Shown here in pieces: positions 149 through 21,894 of a DNA stretch of 23,937 bases. The DNA is taken from the NCBI GenBank assembly GCA_001797815.1, contig MGQK01000104.1, positions 1 to 23,937 on the forward strand. Direction: 5' to 3'. This DNA comes from Deltaproteobacteria bacterium RBG_13_61_14 (lineage in GTDB: Bacteria > RBG-13-61-14). Position numbers and translations under genes: made by a program. Within the stretch, counting starts at the first letter, position 1. The number at the start of each line of letters is the position of its first letter. The notes beneath the pieces are model-generated. The model was given only the letters and a program-made list of their open reading frames with translations. It did no database searches and had not been told where the DNA came from.

Positions 149-2578
149 TCACCGCCTTTTCCTGCTTTTCTTTTTCGAGGGCGATGCCCGCTCCATCTCC
201 AGGCTCCGGCCGTTCAGCCGCACCCTTTTCACCCGGGACTGCGGGGGCAGGTCCACTTCGATGACCCGAGCGGGCAGGCGGGCCGTGACCGCCAATTCCC
301 CTCGGAGGAGCGCGGCGCGGAGCTTGACCGCCCGGCCCGGTTCCTCGACCAATTCCCCTCGCGCCCTTCCCCGGGCATCGGGAAAAACCTTGAGCGTGAG
401 CGGGTCCAGCGGTTTCTCCCCGGTGTGCTGCATGACCGGTCCGAGCGGAATCACCGTCCCTTCCCGGTAGAAGAACGGGACCCGCGAGAGCGGGCAGCGG
501 TAGCTGATCCATTGTTTGCCCGGGTAGCGCCGGCCGGTCCAGTGGTCGTGCCAGGCGCCTTCGGGAAAATAGATCCGGCGTTGGTCGTCCTCGGTCAGGA
601 TCGGCGCCACCAGGATGGACCGCCCGAACAGGAACTGGTCTTCGATGTTCCAGGTGGTGGGATCATCCTGGAACTCCAGGCAGAGCGGGGCCATGACCGG
701 AAGGCCGTTGCGGGCCGCATGGGCGGCCTCCGTATAAAGGTAGGGAATCAATCGGTAGCGGAGCTCGAGCATCCGGCGCGCGATGGCCTGCGTCTCCGGC
801 GAAAAGTTCCAGGGCTCCCGGAATTTCGGCGGGCAGCCGTGCAGGCGCATGTGGGAGTTGAAGATCCCGAACTGGACCCAGCGGGTGTAAAGCTTGTCGT
901 CGGGGACGCCGATGAACCCGCCCACGTCGTTGGACCAGAAGGAAAAGCCGCACAGGCCCAGGCTCAAGCCGCCCCTGAGCGAGCAGAGCATGTTCTCGAA
1001 GCTGGAGGAGTTGTCCCCGGACCAGTGCAGCGGGTAGCGCTGCGAGCCGGCATAGGCGGAGCGGGCCCAGATCACCGGCTGCGGGAAGAACTCCGCGGTC
1101 ACCTCGAAGGCGGCTTTGTTATACAAAAGGGGATAAAGGTTGTGCATGGTCCGGCCGTCGCCCCGGGCGAAGGTCATCCGGTCCATCGCCCACTCGCCGA
1201 AATCGGCCTTGATGCAGGCCGCGCCCAGTTGGAAGAGCTTGCGCCAGCGCTCCTGATACCACTCCACGCCCTCGGGCTTGGAGAAATCAATCATGGCCAT
1301 GGGCTTGAAGGTGAAAGCAAAGCCCTGGTCGTTCCCGGCAAAAGCGCCCCGCCGAAGACCGTCCTGGTAGAGCGGCAGCTTTTTCATCACGTAAGGGAAT
1401 TGCCAGAGCGAGACGCGGAAGCCCTGGTCCCGGCACTGGCGGAACATAGCCGCCGGGTCCGGAAACCGGTCCGGCGCAAACTCCCAGTCGCACTCCCAGT
1501 CGGTCTTGAACCAGTTGGTGTCAATGTGGATCACGTCGCTCGGCCATTTTTCCTCCCGCAGGCGCTTGGCCACTCCCAGCACTTCCTCCTGGCTCCCGTA
1601 ACTGATCCGGCTCACCCAGAGCCCGAACGACCACTTCGGCGGCACCGGGCCCCGGCCGGTCAGGTCGGTGTAGAGCCGGAGAATCTTTTTAAACGAAGGT
1701 CCGTAGAAAAAATAGTAATCCAGCAAGCGGCCTTCCACCGCCATGATCATATGGGGAAAGTGGCGGCTGCCCACCCAGAAGTTCATGGGCAGGCTCTCGT
1801 TAACAAAGATCCCGTAGCCCTGGGTGGAGAGGAAAAAGGGAATGGGCTTGTAGGTGCGGCCCATGGTGTTGCCCATGCCTTCCTTGGTCCACAGCCCGAG
1901 GGTCTGACCGCGGCGGTTCAGCGAAGCGAAGCGCTCGCCCAAACCATAGGTCGCCTCGCCCGGATTCAGGGTCCAATTCTCCACCGCGAAACTCATCCCC
2001 GAGCCCTGGTCGGCGACAAAACCCGTGGGCCAGGAATCCTGGGCATTGGGAAACGCGTTCTTCATCCGGCCGCCGGACTCGGTCAGGCGCCGGCCCCGGC
2101 CGTCAAAAATCTCGATCCGAAAATCCCGCTTGAACAGCGTGAGCTTGAGCTTCGGGCTTTTCAGGATGAACCGGTCCGGCGTCTCCTGGAACACGACCGT
2201 GAGCCGGGGGTCGGCCAGGTCGCCGATGACCAGGTCGGTGGCATGTTCCGGCACGGTCTCGCCCTCGACCGCGCGCAGGCGGAAAGCGTCGGCCCGAAGA
2301 AAGTCGAGGCGAAGCGTGATCCTTTGCCAGGGCGAGCCTTGGGTCTGGTATTCCAGAAAAAACTGGATCTTGCGCTGGGTATAGACCTGAAAGCCGCGGG
2401 CGGCAAAGAAAAATGAGTTGCCCTCGCGCCGGGCGGATTCCAGCTCCACGATGCAGTTGGCGGTCTTGTCGAACTGCTTGAAAATATTGGGACCGTCCAG
2501 GTCGCCTTCCGCATCGAGCGGGTGATCGCCCAAACCCACGTAAGAGTTGGGCACCCAGCCTTCGCTGGTCTTTCCCAT
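149..2578 (-). CDS. GH31 alpha-glycosidase (alpha-xylosidase/alpha-glucosidase, YicI-like)
   Basis: An 809-residue protein that would hydrolyse alpha-linked glucosides or xylosides from the non-reducing end. An N-terminal beta-sandwich (about 1-290) precedes a (beta/alpha)8 barrel (about 310-620) and C-terminal beta domains. The nucleophile motif KADFGE places the catalytic Asp at 459, and WSGDNSSSFENM gives the acid/base Asp at 522. HIDTNWF near 351 and RSAYAG near 506 are further GH31 marks. The KxDFGE form resembles E. coli YicI alpha-xylosidase (772 aa), though substrate cannot be fixed from sequence. There is no signal peptide, so it is probably cytoplasmic. The C-terminus ends in a short Lys/Arg-rich tail. 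The ATG is preceded by GGGAGG at good spacing. It is the last gene of a minus-strand run, 37 bp after the YfhO-like gene. Confidence 0.93.
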   Translation of the reverse strand: MGKTSEGWVPNSYVGLGDHPLDAEGDLDGPNIFKQFDKTANCIVELESARREGNSFFFAARGFQVYTQRKIQFFLEYQTQGSPWQRITLRLDFLRADAFRLRAVEGETVPEHATDLVIGDLADPRLTVVFQETPDRFILKSPKLKLTLFKRDFRIEIFDGRGRRLTESGGRMKNAFPNAQDSWPTGFVADQGSGMSFAVENWTLNPGEATYGLGERFASLNRRGQTLGLWTKEGMGNTMGRTYKPIPFFLSTQGYGIFVNESLPMNFWVGSRHFPHMIMAVEGRLLDYYFFYGPSFKKILRLYTDLTGRGPVPPKWSFGLWVSRISYGSQEEVLGVAKRLREEKWPSDVIHIDTNWFKTDWECDWEFAPDRFPDPAAMFRQCRDQGFRVSLWQFPYVMKKLPLYQDGLRRGAFAGNDQGFAFTFKPMAMIDFSKPEGVEWYQERWRKLFQLGAACIKADFGEWAMDRMTFARGDGRTMHNLYPLLYNKAAFEVTAEFFPQPVIWARSAYAGSQRYPLHWSGDNSSSFENMLCSLRGGLSLGLCGFSFWSNDVGGFIGVPDDKLYTRWVQFGIFNSHMRLHGCPPKFREPWNFSPETQAIARRMLELRYRLIPYLYTEAAHAARNGLPVMAPLCLEFQDDPTTWNIEDQFLFGRSILVAPILTEDDQRRIYFPEGAWHDHWTGRRYPGKQWISYRCPLSRVPFFYREGTVIPLGPVMQHTGEKPLDPLTLKVFPDARGRARGELVEEPGRAVKLRAALLRGELAVTARLPARVIEVDLPPQSRVKRVRLNGRSLEMERASPSKKKSRKRR

Positions 2579-2615
2579 GTTTCTTTCGCCTCCCGATTCC
2601 AGCGAAATGTTAGCT

Positions 2616-4805
2616 TTATTGGCGAGGCTTTGTCAAAGAAAATTTCCAGAAACCGAGCGAGAGCAGGAGAGTGAAAAGCGAAGCCAGGCTCGACCACAGC
2701 CCGATCCGAAAACTCCCGGGCACGAAGCGCAAAATAATGGCGCCGCCCCGGCCCGCGGTCAGGCGCCGGAAACCCAACTGATCGGGTTCGATCTTGATTT
2801 CCCGGCCGGACCTCCTCGCTTCCCAACCCGGATACCAGGACTCGGCCAGACGCACGGTCAGCTCGGAGCCCAGGACCCGGATTCCCCAGCGCCGCCAGAG
2901 GGAAGCGGGATCGAGCTCGACCCGGTCCGGGGCCGGGTGGCGGACGGTCATCTCGACCGGCTGGCCCCAGACCTCGGCCGTGGCCCGGGGCCGGGCGTTT
3001 TCATTTTTGTATAGATAGAGATCGGGATAGACCACGACCGGCGTCAGCTTCAAGGCCCCCTGGCTTCCGCTCCAGGGAGAACGCGAGACGATCCAGGTCA
3101 CGTTCATCTCGTTGAGAAAATCGAGGCGGTTGCGCGCCAGGTTTTGCGGGTCGCGCAGCGACCTCGGGTCGGCTCGGACCGGCCGGCTTTTGACCCGGTG
3201 CAGCCAGGACGGATAAAGCAGAGCCAGGCGCCGGGCCGCCCGTGCCGGGACGGTGCGGGTGAAGGCGTCAATGGTATCGGCCTGGAGGCGAAGGCCCAGG
3301 TGAAAAGGCAGCCCGGAATCCGAAGAGTCGTGAATGGCCGGGACCTGATAGCGCTCATTGCCTGCCGTGTCTCCCAGGAAAGAGAGGAGGCGGGGATCGA
3401 GTTCGAAGGCCGTGGGGTCGGTCCGGGGCAGGTGGGTGAGCGCGAGCCCGTAAAGGTCCAGGACCACCAGCGCGATCGCCAGCGCGCTCTTGCCTCGAAA
3501 GGAGAGCCGGGTCAAAACCGATTGGCCGGGCAGCGCGATCACGCCGACGGCGACCAGGATCATGGAAAAAATCAGTCGCACATCCATTCCCCGGCGAAAC
3601 CAGTAAAGGGAGACTGCCGTCGCCGCGCCGAAAACTACCAGGTAGCAAGCCCCGGCCCGGCCGGCCGGCAAGGGCGCGGACGGCGCGGCGGCGTCCCTGC
3701 CCTGGGCCCACTGGTCCAAGGCGAAAGTCGCCCCGAGCAGGAAAAAGATCTCGAGCACGGGCCAAAATTCAAGCGGCTCGGCCAGCATCCTGAGCCCGGG
3801 GAGGTTGGAATTCGCCAGGTTAAAAGGGGGCGCGTAGAGCAGGATGAGATAGATCGCCGCGGCCGGAAAGATGAACATGCGCCGGCGGACGTAGCTGAAG
3901 CGCCGGAGGCCATCGGCAGCCGGCAGGATGAGAAAGGCGCCGAGGAACCACGGGTCCAGGCCGGAGTTGGGGAAGGCGTAGGAAGCAGGGACAGGAATTG
4001 GGAACAGGGCCAGGAGCGGCACGGCGGCCAGAAGGCCGGGAAGATGCATCCGGGAAAACGTCTCGCCGGCCCAGAGAGAATGGCGGCTGAGCTCCAGGGC
4101 CGGGAGCAGTTGGGAAAAAGCCATCAAGGCCCCGATCCCGGCCGAGGCCGCGAGCGCGAGCAGGGGGGAGCGGCCCAGGGGTTTTTCTCGCTGGCGCAGG
4201 ATCAGCTCAAAGCCGAGGCCGAGGACCGCGTAAAGCAAGAGCTCCAGGTCGCCACCCAAGACCATGGCCGCGAGCGAGACCGCGGCCAGGGTGAAGGACC
4301 AGGCGCGGGGCCGTTTGAGCAGGGCGAAAGCCGCGGCATACCAGCACGGCAGCCAGGCGCCGGTGTGGAGCGAGGGCGGGGAGTTGATGTGGCCGAACAG
4401 GAACCCGGAGAAGGCATACGCTGCCGCGCCGATCAAAGCGGCCGGAGCCGACCGCCCTGCCACTCTTAAGAGCGCGAAAGCGGAGATCGCGGCCAGGGCG
4501 AGGTGAAAAAAGATATCGAAGCTTGCGGCTTGGCTGTAAAGGGCAAAGCGGATTTGGAGCAGGACCCCGGGCAGGTAGAGCGAGCCGGTCTGGGCGACGG
4601 CGAGGAAAGGCATGCCGCAGAGGTCGTGCGGGTCCCAGAGCGGGAAGTGGCCGGAGAGGTAGCAGCGCCGGATAAAGGCGGCAAAGGGAATCCACAGGTT
4701 GCCGATGTCCAGGACTTCCGGTTGGTCCACCACACTCAGGCCGAAAAGTGAGGGTAAGAAGGCAAGCAGGCCGGCCAAGGCCAACAAGGCCGCGACCCAG
4801 GGCAA
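2616..4805 (-). CDS. YfhO-family polytopic membrane protein
   Basis: A 729-residue integral membrane protein with about a dozen hydrophobic segments, beginning at residue 1. The N-terminal part has the family pattern 'P.WDPHDLCGMPFLAVAQTG' near 57-75. After the last internal membrane block, a soluble region ends in ESWYPGWEARRSGREIKI, the typical YfhO extracytoplasmic tail, followed by RFVPGSFRIG and a final membrane helix. Members of this family are GT-C-like membrane proteins involved in modifying cell-wall polymers with sugars in Firmicutes; the role elsewhere is unknown. The start is uncertain: TTG at 4805 is used here, but the frame stays open to just inside the preceding gene and offers CTG (4847) or ATT (4823). 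It lies between the dehydrogenase and the GH31 gene in the same operon. Confidence 0.82.
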   Translation of the reverse strand: MPWVAALLALAGLLAFLPSLFGLSVVDQPEVLDIGNLWIPFAAFIRRCYLSGHFPLWDPHDLCGMPFLAVAQTGSLYLPGVLLQIRFALYSQAASFDIFFHLALAAISAFALLRVAGRSAPAALIGAAAYAFSGFLFGHINSPPSLHTGAWLPCWYAAAFALLKRPRAWSFTLAAVSLAAMVLGGDLELLLYAVLGLGFELILRQREKPLGRSPLLALAASAGIGALMAFSQLLPALELSRHSLWAGETFSRMHLPGLLAAVPLLALFPIPVPASYAFPNSGLDPWFLGAFLILPAADGLRRFSYVRRRMFIFPAAAIYLILLYAPPFNLANSNLPGLRMLAEPLEFWPVLEIFFLLGATFALDQWAQGRDAAAPSAPLPAGRAGACYLVVFGAATAVSLYWFRRGMDVRLIFSMILVAVGVIALPGQSVLTRLSFRGKSALAIALVVLDLYGLALTHLPRTDPTAFELDPRLLSFLGDTAGNERYQVPAIHDSSDSGLPFHLGLRLQADTIDAFTRTVPARAARRLALLYPSWLHRVKSRPVRADPRSLRDPQNLARNRLDFLNEMNVTWIVSRSPWSGSQGALKLTPVVVYPDLYLYKNENARPRATAEVWGQPVEMTVRHPAPDRVELDPASLWRRWGIRVLGSELTVRLAESWYPGWEARRSGREIKIEPDQLGFRRLTAGRGGAIILRFVPGSFRIGLWSSLASLFTLLLSLGFWKFSLTKPRQ

Positions 4806-19047: not shown

Positions 19048-19833
19048 ATGCCGGATGCGAGCCTGGTGCTGCTGAGCGTGGAGGACGGGATCGGGCTGAT
19101 GACGATCAACCGTCCCAAGGCCCTGAACGCGCTGAACGTGGAGACCCTCTTGCGGCTGGAAGAGGTGATCGAGGAGTGCGGCCGGCGGCCGGAGGTGAAG
19201 GTGCTGATTGTGACCGGCGCGGGCGAGAAGTCTTTCGTGGCCGGGGCGGACATAGGGGGGATGCTGGGGATGGGAGTGGCCGAGGGCCGGGCCTTTTCCG
19301 AGCTGGGCCAGCGGGTGTTCGGAAGACTGGAGAAGCTGCCCAAGCCGGTGATCGCCGCGGTCAACGGCTACGCGCTGGGCGCGGGCACCGAGTTGGCGGT
19401 GGCCTGCGACATCGTGCTCGCCTCGGAGAAAGCGCGCTTCGGCCAGCCGGAGGTGAACCTGGGGGTGTTCCCCGGGTTCGGCGGCACCCAGCGGCTGCCC
19501 CGGCTGTTGGGCAAGGCGCGGGCCAAGGAGATCATCTTCAGCGGCGAGCAATTCGACGCGGCGCGGGCGCTGGCGATCGGGCTGATCAACCGGATCTGCA
19601 AGCCGGAGGAATTGCTGGACGAGGCGAAGGAGCTGGCCCGGACCATGCTGAGCAAGGGCATGGCCGCGATCGGCCTGGCCAAGCAGGCGATCGAGGCGGG
19701 CAGCGAAGTGGATTTCGAGAACGGCCTGATCATCGAGCGGCACTGTTTTGCCCAGTGCTTTGACACCAAGGACCAGAAAGAGGGCATGACCGCCTTCCTG
19801 GATAAGCGGGAGCCGAAATTTATCGGGAAATAG
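19048..19833 (+). CDS. enoyl-CoA hydratase/crotonase
   Basis: A 261-residue crotonase-fold enzyme that hydrates trans-2-enoyl-CoA (for example crotonyl-CoA). The oxyanion-hole segment FVAGADIG is at 63-70, GYALGAGTELAVACD at 107-121 carries the catalytic Glu115, and FGQPEVNLGVFPGFGGTQRL (131-150) carries Glu135; both catalytic glutamates of true hydratases are kept. ATG 19048 is preceded by AAGGAGGGG. It sits 41 bp after the thiolase stop, separated only by the palindrome. With the acyl-CoA dehydrogenase downstream it covers two consecutive steps of the same pathway. Confidence 0.94.
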   Translation: MPDASLVLLSVEDGIGLMTINRPKALNALNVETLLRLEEVIEECGRRPEVKVLIVTGAGEKSFVAGADIGGMLGMGVAEGRAFSELGQRVFGRLEKLPKPVIAAVNGYALGAGTELAVACDIVLASEKARFGQPEVNLGVFPGFGGTQRLPRLLGKARAKEIIFSGEQFDAARALAIGLINRICKPEELLDEAKELARTMLSKGMAAIGLAKQAIEAGSEVDFENGLIIERHCFAQCFDTKDQKEGMTAFLDKREPKFIGK

Positions 19834-19855
19834 TGCACAGTGGATAGTGCACAGT
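19830..19855. repeat. short direct repeat ATAGTGCACAGT x2
   Basis: Two identical 12-mers at 19830-19841 and 19844-19855, 14 bp apart, filling most of the 35-bp gap after the enoyl-CoA hydratase. The first copy overlaps its stop codon. A related sequence in opposite orientation lies at about 17081-17092. Confidence 0.7.
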
Positions 19856-19868
19856 TTAAGATCAAGAG

Positions 19869-20675
19869 ATGAGCCGCAAGTTTCAAAAAGGTGAACGGGT
19901 CCAGTTTTACCAGGACGGGAAATGGATCAAGGGCAAGGTCACCGCGGTGCTGGGACCTTCGCGCCGGATCCTGACCGACCAAGGCCCGAGCGATAGAGTC
20001 TCGGTCAGCCGGCTAATCAAGGCCAAGGACTCGGTGCTGCTGCTGGAGACGCGGCTGGAGCAAGCGCTGAACAAGCCGGACCGCAACTACACCGAGCTGT
20101 TTGTCCGGGCGCTGCGGGCCAACCTGGTGGACATCCACCACGAGAAGGTCCATACCCGCCAGGATCTGCGCAACTTTTTGAAAGAGCAGACGCCGGGAAA
20201 GGACATCCGCTTCATCCATATTATCGGTCACGGGAAAGAGGCCGATGATAAAGGCCCCACCCGGATCTCGTTGACCTTTGAGGACGTGGACCTGAAAAAG
20301 AACGCCAACCTCTTCCGCGGTCTGGACGGTAAGATCATCATCTTCTCCTCCTGCGAGATCGGCCGCGACCGCGAGGCTTTGCTCAAGATCCTGGAGAAGA
20401 GCAGCGCCCAGTGCATCTATGCCTACAACCGGGAAGTGGACGACTGGTATTCGATCATTGTCGAGCTTTTGCTCTACGACCGCTTGATCAACCAGCCGGA
20501 CTGGCCGCCGGAGCGGGTGGGCCGCGAAGTGCAGAAGTCGTTGAACCTGCTGGGGGTCAAGCCGGATGGGCTCCGGCGCTGGGGCCTCAAGAGCTCGGCT
20601 TTGGTCTGGGTGACACAAAAGGACTTGAAGGCAGAGAACGGGAAGAACGAGACCAACGGCCGGGAAAAGACTTGA
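19869..20675 (+). CDS. SH3/Tudor-like domain fused to a caspase/CHAT-like domain
   Basis: A 268-residue protein with no close family I can name. Residues 5-52 (GERVQFYQDGKWIKGKVTAVL onward) look like a small SH3/Tudor-type beta-barrel. Residues 55-205 have the layout of clan CD caspase-fold peptidases and CHAT domains: a strand ending IRFIHIIGHGK with candidate catalytic His121, a segment ISLTFEDVDL, then IIIFSSCEIGRD with candidate catalytic Cys162. The tail (206-268) is charged. No signal or membrane segment is present, so it is probably cytoplasmic. It sits in line between enoyl-CoA hydratase and acyl-CoA dehydrogenase with 35- and 79-bp gaps. The ribosome site is weak. Function is unknown; a protease or protease-like sensor is an inference from the His/Cys arrangement. 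Confidence 0.7.
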   Translation: MSRKFQKGERVQFYQDGKWIKGKVTAVLGPSRRILTDQGPSDRVSVSRLIKAKDSVLLLETRLEQALNKPDRNYTELFVRALRANLVDIHHEKVHTRQDLRNFLKEQTPGKDIRFIHIIGHGKEADDKGPTRISLTFEDVDLKKNANLFRGLDGKIIIFSSCEIGRDREALLKILEKSSAQCIYAYNREVDDWYSIIVELLLYDRLINQPDWPPERVGREVQKSLNLLGVKPDGLRRWGLKSSALVWVTQKDLKAENGKNETNGREKT

Positions 20676-20754: not shown

Positions 20755-21894
20755 ATGTTTGATCTGAGCGAAGAGCAAAAGATGATTCAGGACATGGTCC
20801 GGGACTTTGCCCAGAACGAGGTGCGGCCCCGGGCCGAGCAGATTGATCGGACCCACGAGTTCCCGGCCGACCTGGTGAAGAAGATGGCGGAGCTGGGCTT
20901 GATGGGGGTGGAGGTGCCGGAGCAATGGGGCGGCGCCGGGATGGACCCGATCTGCTACGCCATCGCGGTGGAAGAAGTCAGCGCGGCCTGCGGGTCCACC
21001 GGGGTGATCCTCTCCGCCCACAACTCTTTAGCCTGCGCGCCCATCGCCAAGTTCGGCACCGATGCGCAAAAGGAGAAGCACCTGAAGCCGTTAGCCTCGG
21101 GCCAGGCCGTGGGGTGCTTCGGCCTGACCGAGCCCAGCGCCGGCTCGGACGCCGGGGCCATCAAGACCCGGGCCGAGCTCAAGGGCAAGGAGTGGATCAT
21201 TAACGGCACCAAGATCTTCATCACCAACGGCAAGGAGGCCAAGACCTGCGTGCTCTTCGCGCGGAGCGAGGATGCGCCCGGGCATCGCGGGATGAGCGCC
21301 TTTATCGTGCCCACCGACGCGCCGGGGTTTGCGGTGGGGAAGCTGGAAGAGAAGCTCGGGATCGTGGGCTCGAGCACCGCGGAGCTGGTGCTGGAAGACT
21401 GCCGCATCCCCGGGGAGAACCTGCTGGGCGAGCGCGGCCAGGGCTTCAAGGTGGCCATGTTCACGCTCGACGGCGGCCGGATCGGGATCGCGGCCCAGGC
21501 CGTGGGCATCGCCCGCGGGGCGCTGGAGGCCGCCGTCGCTTTTTCCAAGGAGCGGGTCCAGTTCGGCAAGCCCATTGCCGAGTTCCAGGCCATCCAGTGG
21601 ATGCTGGCCGACATGGCTACCGAGATTGACGCGGCGCGGCTCTTGCTCTGGCGGGCCGCGGCCATGAAAAAGGCGGGCGTGCGCTACTCCAAGGAGTCGG
21701 CCATGTGCAAGCTCTACGCGGCGGAGGCGGCCGAGCGCGCCACCACCAAGGCGGTGCAGATCCACGGCGGCTACGGCTACGTCAAAGATTACCCGGTCGA
21801 GCGCTTCTTCCGCGACGCCCGGATCACCTCCATCTACGAAGGCACCTCCGAAATCCAGCGCCTCGTGATTGCCAACAGTCTCCTGAAAGAGTAA
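20755..21894 (+). CDS. short-chain acyl-CoA dehydrogenase (butyryl-CoA dehydrogenase-like)
   Basis: A 379-residue FAD enzyme oxidising acyl-CoA to trans-2-enoyl-CoA, or reducing it with an electron-transferring partner. Signatures: CFGLTEPSAGSDAGAI (119-134), QIHGGYGYVKDYPVER in the C-terminal half, and the catalytic Glu362 in YEGTSEIQR. Length and the FDLSEEQKMIQ N-terminus match butyryl- and short-branched-chain dehydrogenases. The start has GGGAGTGAG upstream. No etfAB genes are nearby, so its electron carrier must be encoded elsewhere. Last gene of the acyl-CoA operon. Confidence 0.95.
   Translation: MFDLSEEQKMIQDMVRDFAQNEVRPRAEQIDRTHEFPADLVKKMAELGLMGVEVPEQWGGAGMDPICYAIAVEEVSAACGSTGVILSAHNSLACAPIAKFGTDAQKEKHLKPLASGQAVGCFGLTEPSAGSDAGAIKTRAELKGKEWIINGTKIFITNGKEAKTCVLFARSEDAPGHRGMSAFIVPTDAPGFAVGKLEEKLGIVGSSTAELVLEDCRIPGENLLGERGQGFKVAMFTLDGGRIGIAAQAVGIARGALEAAVAFSKERVQFGKPIAEFQAIQWMLADMATEIDAARLLLWRAAAMKKAGVRYSKESAMCKLYAAEAAERATTKAVQIHGGYGYVKDYPVERFFRDARITSIYEGTSEIQRLVIANSLLKE

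Follow-up and report, generated by a model that had tools for sequence, protein, structure and literature searches.

Among described proteins, the closest to the one considered here are the CHAT (PF12770) proteases, such as TPR-CHAT/Csx29, together with caspase-3 and the other C14 caspases. H585 and C627 make up the dyad of a TPR-CHAT protease of solved structure and lie 42 residues apart (PMC9729208). Pfam also holds an uncharacterised family, DUF6642 (PF20347), and our literature search returned no paper mentioning either of these two names. The gene described below lies at positions 19869–20675 on the + strand of the window (the whole stretch of DNA analysed, 23,937 nucleotides). On the basis of sequence comparisons, its product, P0001, is probably a stand-alone caspase/CHAT-like cysteine endopeptidase with an N-terminal SH3-like module, encoded by a gene that was inserted in a metabolic operon.

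The open reading frame, which the first-pass annotation had delimited exactly, is clean, starts with ATG, stops with TGA and encodes 268 amino acids. The GC content at its three codon positions (0.58/0.36/0.83) is that of a codon-structured sequence, and the gene is present as a single copy in its own genome. A search of 386 whole genomes yielded one orthologue in a genome of a different phylum (G043), with 44–45% identity and E 9.6e-60. The alignment covers nearly the whole length, including the N-terminal barrel, and both proteins have the two-domain architecture. Given this codon structure and the near-full-length conservation in another phylum, 19869–20675 is a genuine gene. No further full-length orthologue was detected by profile searches of 385 genomes (a largely overlapping sample) and of 195 genomes of another phylum, so the SH3-like plus DUF6642 architecture is rare in the sampled genomes. 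With P0001 itself as the query, Pfam, NCBIfam, PDB, plasmids, phages and contig collections gave no useful match; tblastn against plasmids and phages produced no match, and two genome-contig scans and a viral-contig scan with P0001, its orthologue and DUF6642 as queries revealed no relatives. Several candidates were discarded in the course of these searches. The Pfam matches of P0001 to Chromo_MORC2 and PaaA_PaaC (E 0.13–0.16) were far under the cut-off and covered fragments, while the profile matches L007 and L009, as well as the sub-cut-off PF20347 matches in the aminotransferases L014, L017 and L019, were due to chance and fell in unrelated proteins. The DUF6642 motif 'VDWxESxAF', used as a DNA pattern, brought up a dUTPase-like protein in five copies and nothing else.

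Profile comparison places residues 54–210 of P0001 (20028–20498, + strand) in Pfam DUF6642. The two-sequence family (P0001 and its orthologue) was aligned by hhalign over these residues with an alignment of seven DUF6642-type proteins taken from other genomes and a plasmid, with 97.6% probability and E 2.8e-12; in the control run it scored 79, while shuffled versions did not exceed 19.8. P0001 itself scores 47.8 bits with the profile of the seven proteins, the best of 1000 shuffles being 4.0. The HG, SC and DVDW motifs of the family align with the window protein. The orthologue matches PF20347 with E 1.6e-5 and 25.1 bits, slightly below the curated Pfam cut-off of 27 bits, and P0001 alone has neither a PF20347 match nor any other meaningful match in the Pfam listing. 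Two features distinguish the window protein from other DUF6642 members: the extra N-terminal SH3-like barrel and a His-to-Cys stretch of 41 residues compared with 36–38. It had been suggested in the first-pass annotation that no described family has this architecture. With respect to the catalytic domain this does not hold, as the profiles assign it to a Pfam-described family of unknown function; with respect to the fusion it does, since we found no description of DUF6642 joined to such a barrel. The fusion is a new architecture of a known, uncharacterised domain family.

The same profile evidence ties DUF6642 to the caspase/CHAT superfamily. In a whole-genome search the two-sequence profile matched, besides a DUF6642 protein (L005), a true CHAT protein (L006; PF12770 E 1.9e-18), which was thus reached independently. 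The combined family aligns by hhalign with CHAT domains taken from four genomes with 95.1% probability and E 3.1e-8, the HG and SC motifs being in register; the score was 58–60, while none of 60 column shuffles gave more than 19.6. The link rests on this combined profile, since the DUF6642 set and the two-sequence family taken alone gave weaker results (54.7% and 53.4%). P0001 alone reached 14.4 bits with the CHAT profile, the top of 1000 shuffles being 7.2; it has no direct PF12770 match at E ≤ 1. When the combined profile was compared with PDB, the top matches fell on the catalytic-His 'sHG' segment of caspase-3, at a non-significant E of 0.09; the window protein has no significant sequence relationship to caspases, and no p20/p10 arrangement was demonstrated in it. 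The single-sequence AlphaFold2 model of P0001 (mean pLDDT 41) was too poor to interpret, and a caspase-like fold is therefore predicted from the profiles. Taken together with the conserved His and Cys residues described below, these comparisons support the clan CD-like, CHAT-related assignment proposed from inspection of the sequence. Compared with TPR-CHAT/Csx29, however, the window protein is smaller and lacks both TPRs and a CRISPR or gasdermin partner. The genome from which the window derives also encodes one large CHAT-domain protein (a frame of about 1080 aa; L047, G000:C130:14814-15641) with close relatives in two other genomes (G001 and G002).

The putative catalytic residues are His121, followed by Gly122 (20229–20234, + strand), and Cys162 (20352–20354, + strand), which fall on the CHAT histidine and cysteine. 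In nine divergent homologues M1, H121, G122 and C162 are the only invariant positions, and loss of the His or the Cys, which the first-pass annotation had named as evidence against its reading, was not seen; the rest of this family is about 20% identical to P0001. Such invariance at this level of divergence argues for selection on the dyad. The predicted strand RFIHIIGHGK ends at His121-Gly122 and a second one, KIIIFSSCEIG, precedes Cys162, the distance between the two residues being 41 positions as against 42 in TPR-CHAT; the strand-end location and clan CD-like spacing pointed out by the first-pass annotation are thus confirmed. A third common element follows the helix after the cysteine: in the combined alignment and in the hhalign comparison with CHAT, the EVDDW segment at residues 189–193 (20433–20447, + strand) is the counterpart of the 'DVDW' of DUF6642 and of the 'W.VDD' of CHAT. 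With the probable catalytic pair named, the function of DUF6642 becomes directly testable.

The N-terminal part of the protein, residues 1–51 (19869–20021, + strand), has relatives of its own. Residues 3–50 align by hhalign with two stand-alone small proteins of another genome (L008 and L010 in G031) with 96.8% probability and a score of 47.6, the shuffled maximum being 16.0. These proteins have no DUF6642 domain and possess their own N-terminal helix; the similarity is to the 48 N-terminal residues of the window protein. A small beta-barrel preceding the caspase-like domain had been proposed. The predicted strands (E10-15, E18-28 and E33-36 in the same low-confidence model) fit such a barrel, and their pattern suggests the SH3-like label. 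L008 (about 1267-1726) and L010 have in common, in addition to the barrel, a similar 'LNRRIVRRIRYL' helix, and the L008 protein passed the cut-off of no Pfam family.

As had been noted, the gene stands in line between those of an enoyl-CoA hydratase (19048–19833, + strand; PF00378 E 5.7e-67) and an acyl-CoA dehydrogenase (20755–21894, + strand; PF00441 E 8.6e-56), 35 nt downstream of the former and 79 nt upstream of the latter, with a thiolase gene further upstream. The first-pass annotation supposed that the protein senses or controls the acyl-CoA pathway; in such a case the barrel would sense the acyl-CoA/CoA state and the protein would cut or regulate the enzymes. The common strand and the short gaps agree with this, and some DUF6642 genes in four genomes also follow a metabolic gene, that of a PhnW/AepZ-type aminotransferase. 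In a sister-family genome (G002), however, the thiolase (67% identity), hydratase (58%) and dehydrogenase (72%) genes are kept in the same order with only 14 bp from the hydratase stop to the dehydrogenase start, and the P0001 gene is absent. The sole orthologue detected is flanked by ferritin-like and mazG genes, with no acyl-CoA genes near it; the nearest hydratase-dehydrogenase pair of that genome is on another contig, where there is no orthologue, and none of the other window ORFs of at least 80 aa has a match in the orthologue neighbourhood. Conserved linkage with thiolase, crotonase or acyl-CoA dehydrogenase genes is thus seen in neither genome, and we regard a regulator of this pathway as very improbable. 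The GC content of the gene (0.590) is lower than that of its operon neighbours (0.658–0.662), as expected for an insert. Together with the uninterrupted operon of the sister family and the different setting of the orthologue, this argues for insertion into a metabolic operon and against a conserved functional partnership. We infer insertion rather than loss by taking the arrangement of one sister-family genome as the ancestral state; the gene would then have entered, in this lineage, an already established operon of thiolase, enoyl-CoA hydratase and acyl-CoA dehydrogenase genes, with which its position suggests it is co-transcribed. The setting looks like an accident of lineage with no functional link, and location in a beta-oxidation operon is not to be taken for evidence of function. 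A short tandem repeat TAGTGCACAG at 19831 and 19845 (19831–19854) overlaps the stop codon of the hydratase gene, ahead of the P0001 gene. It has no further copy in the window and could mark the insertion point.

The preferred reading of P0001 as an endopeptidase acting apart from its neighbours also has to be weighed against two views of what such a molecule does. By analogy with TPR-CHAT and SAVED-CHAT proteases, it might serve in defence or programmed death, the barrel detecting a sign of infection, upon which the caspase-like domain would cleave a host protein; this would be a special case of the preferred explanation, with the same molecule. A weak PADLOC SAVED_CHAT match (E 0.024) and a patchy distribution over phyla would fit such a role, as would an IteS/IteA-like anti-phage pair of an S8 peptidase and an AAA ATPase, below the NCBIfam cut-offs, 3.6 kb from the orthologue (L003:659-4166), and an Abi_C gene 1.3 kb upstream of a plasmid DUF6642 gene. 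These associations, however, are single and non-adjacent, the window has neither defence genes nor a gasdermin or other known substrate gene adjoining P0001, and DUF6642 was not found in the phages and viral contigs searched. On such thin associations a defence role is possible, and we rate it as unlikely. Alternatively, the caspase-like fold could be a binding or scaffold module devoid of proteolysis. No substrate was found, and many bacterial proteins of the CHAT-like kind are not known to cleave anything; a conserved His–Cys pair is not in itself proof of proteolysis, and there is no conserved substrate or partner gene. Against this view stands the selection on a dyad suggested by the His, the next Gly and the Cys, which apart from M1 are the sole invariant residues of so divergent a family. 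We regard a pseudo-enzyme as quite improbable.

Under the preferred reading, P0001 would be a small cytosolic enzyme, a cysteine endopeptidase of caspase/CHAT (clan CD-like) type that works alone and outside the acyl-CoA pathway, with His121 and Cys162 of the DUF6642 domain as its catalytic dyad. The barrel most likely binds a ligand, a protein or a nucleic acid, and may control or aim the protease domain. A further step would be to see here a new class of sensor-proteases, consisting of a minimal caspase-like DUF6642 domain that is gated directly by the SH3-like barrel. We put this forward only tentatively and consider it rather doubtful; if true, it would provide a one-gene regulated cysteine protease, responding to stress or infection, that dispenses with TPRs, SAVED and CRISPR partners.

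Elsewhere, DUF6642 genes are found beside genes of phosphonate metabolism. In four of the six genomes of one class that carry an above-cut-off DUF6642 gene, it directly follows the gene of the PhnW/AepZ-type 2-aminoethylphosphonate aminotransferase (L020, L022, L023 and L024, about 350-3240). On the Brevibacterium plasmid NZ_CP093444.1 (L027:1666-7768), which is also the one carrying the Abi_C gene, the DUF6642 gene adjoins a convergent phosphonate cluster (GntR, phosphonate dehydrogenase, PhnE, PhnD); this second link of DUF6642 with phosphonate genes is possibly due to chance.
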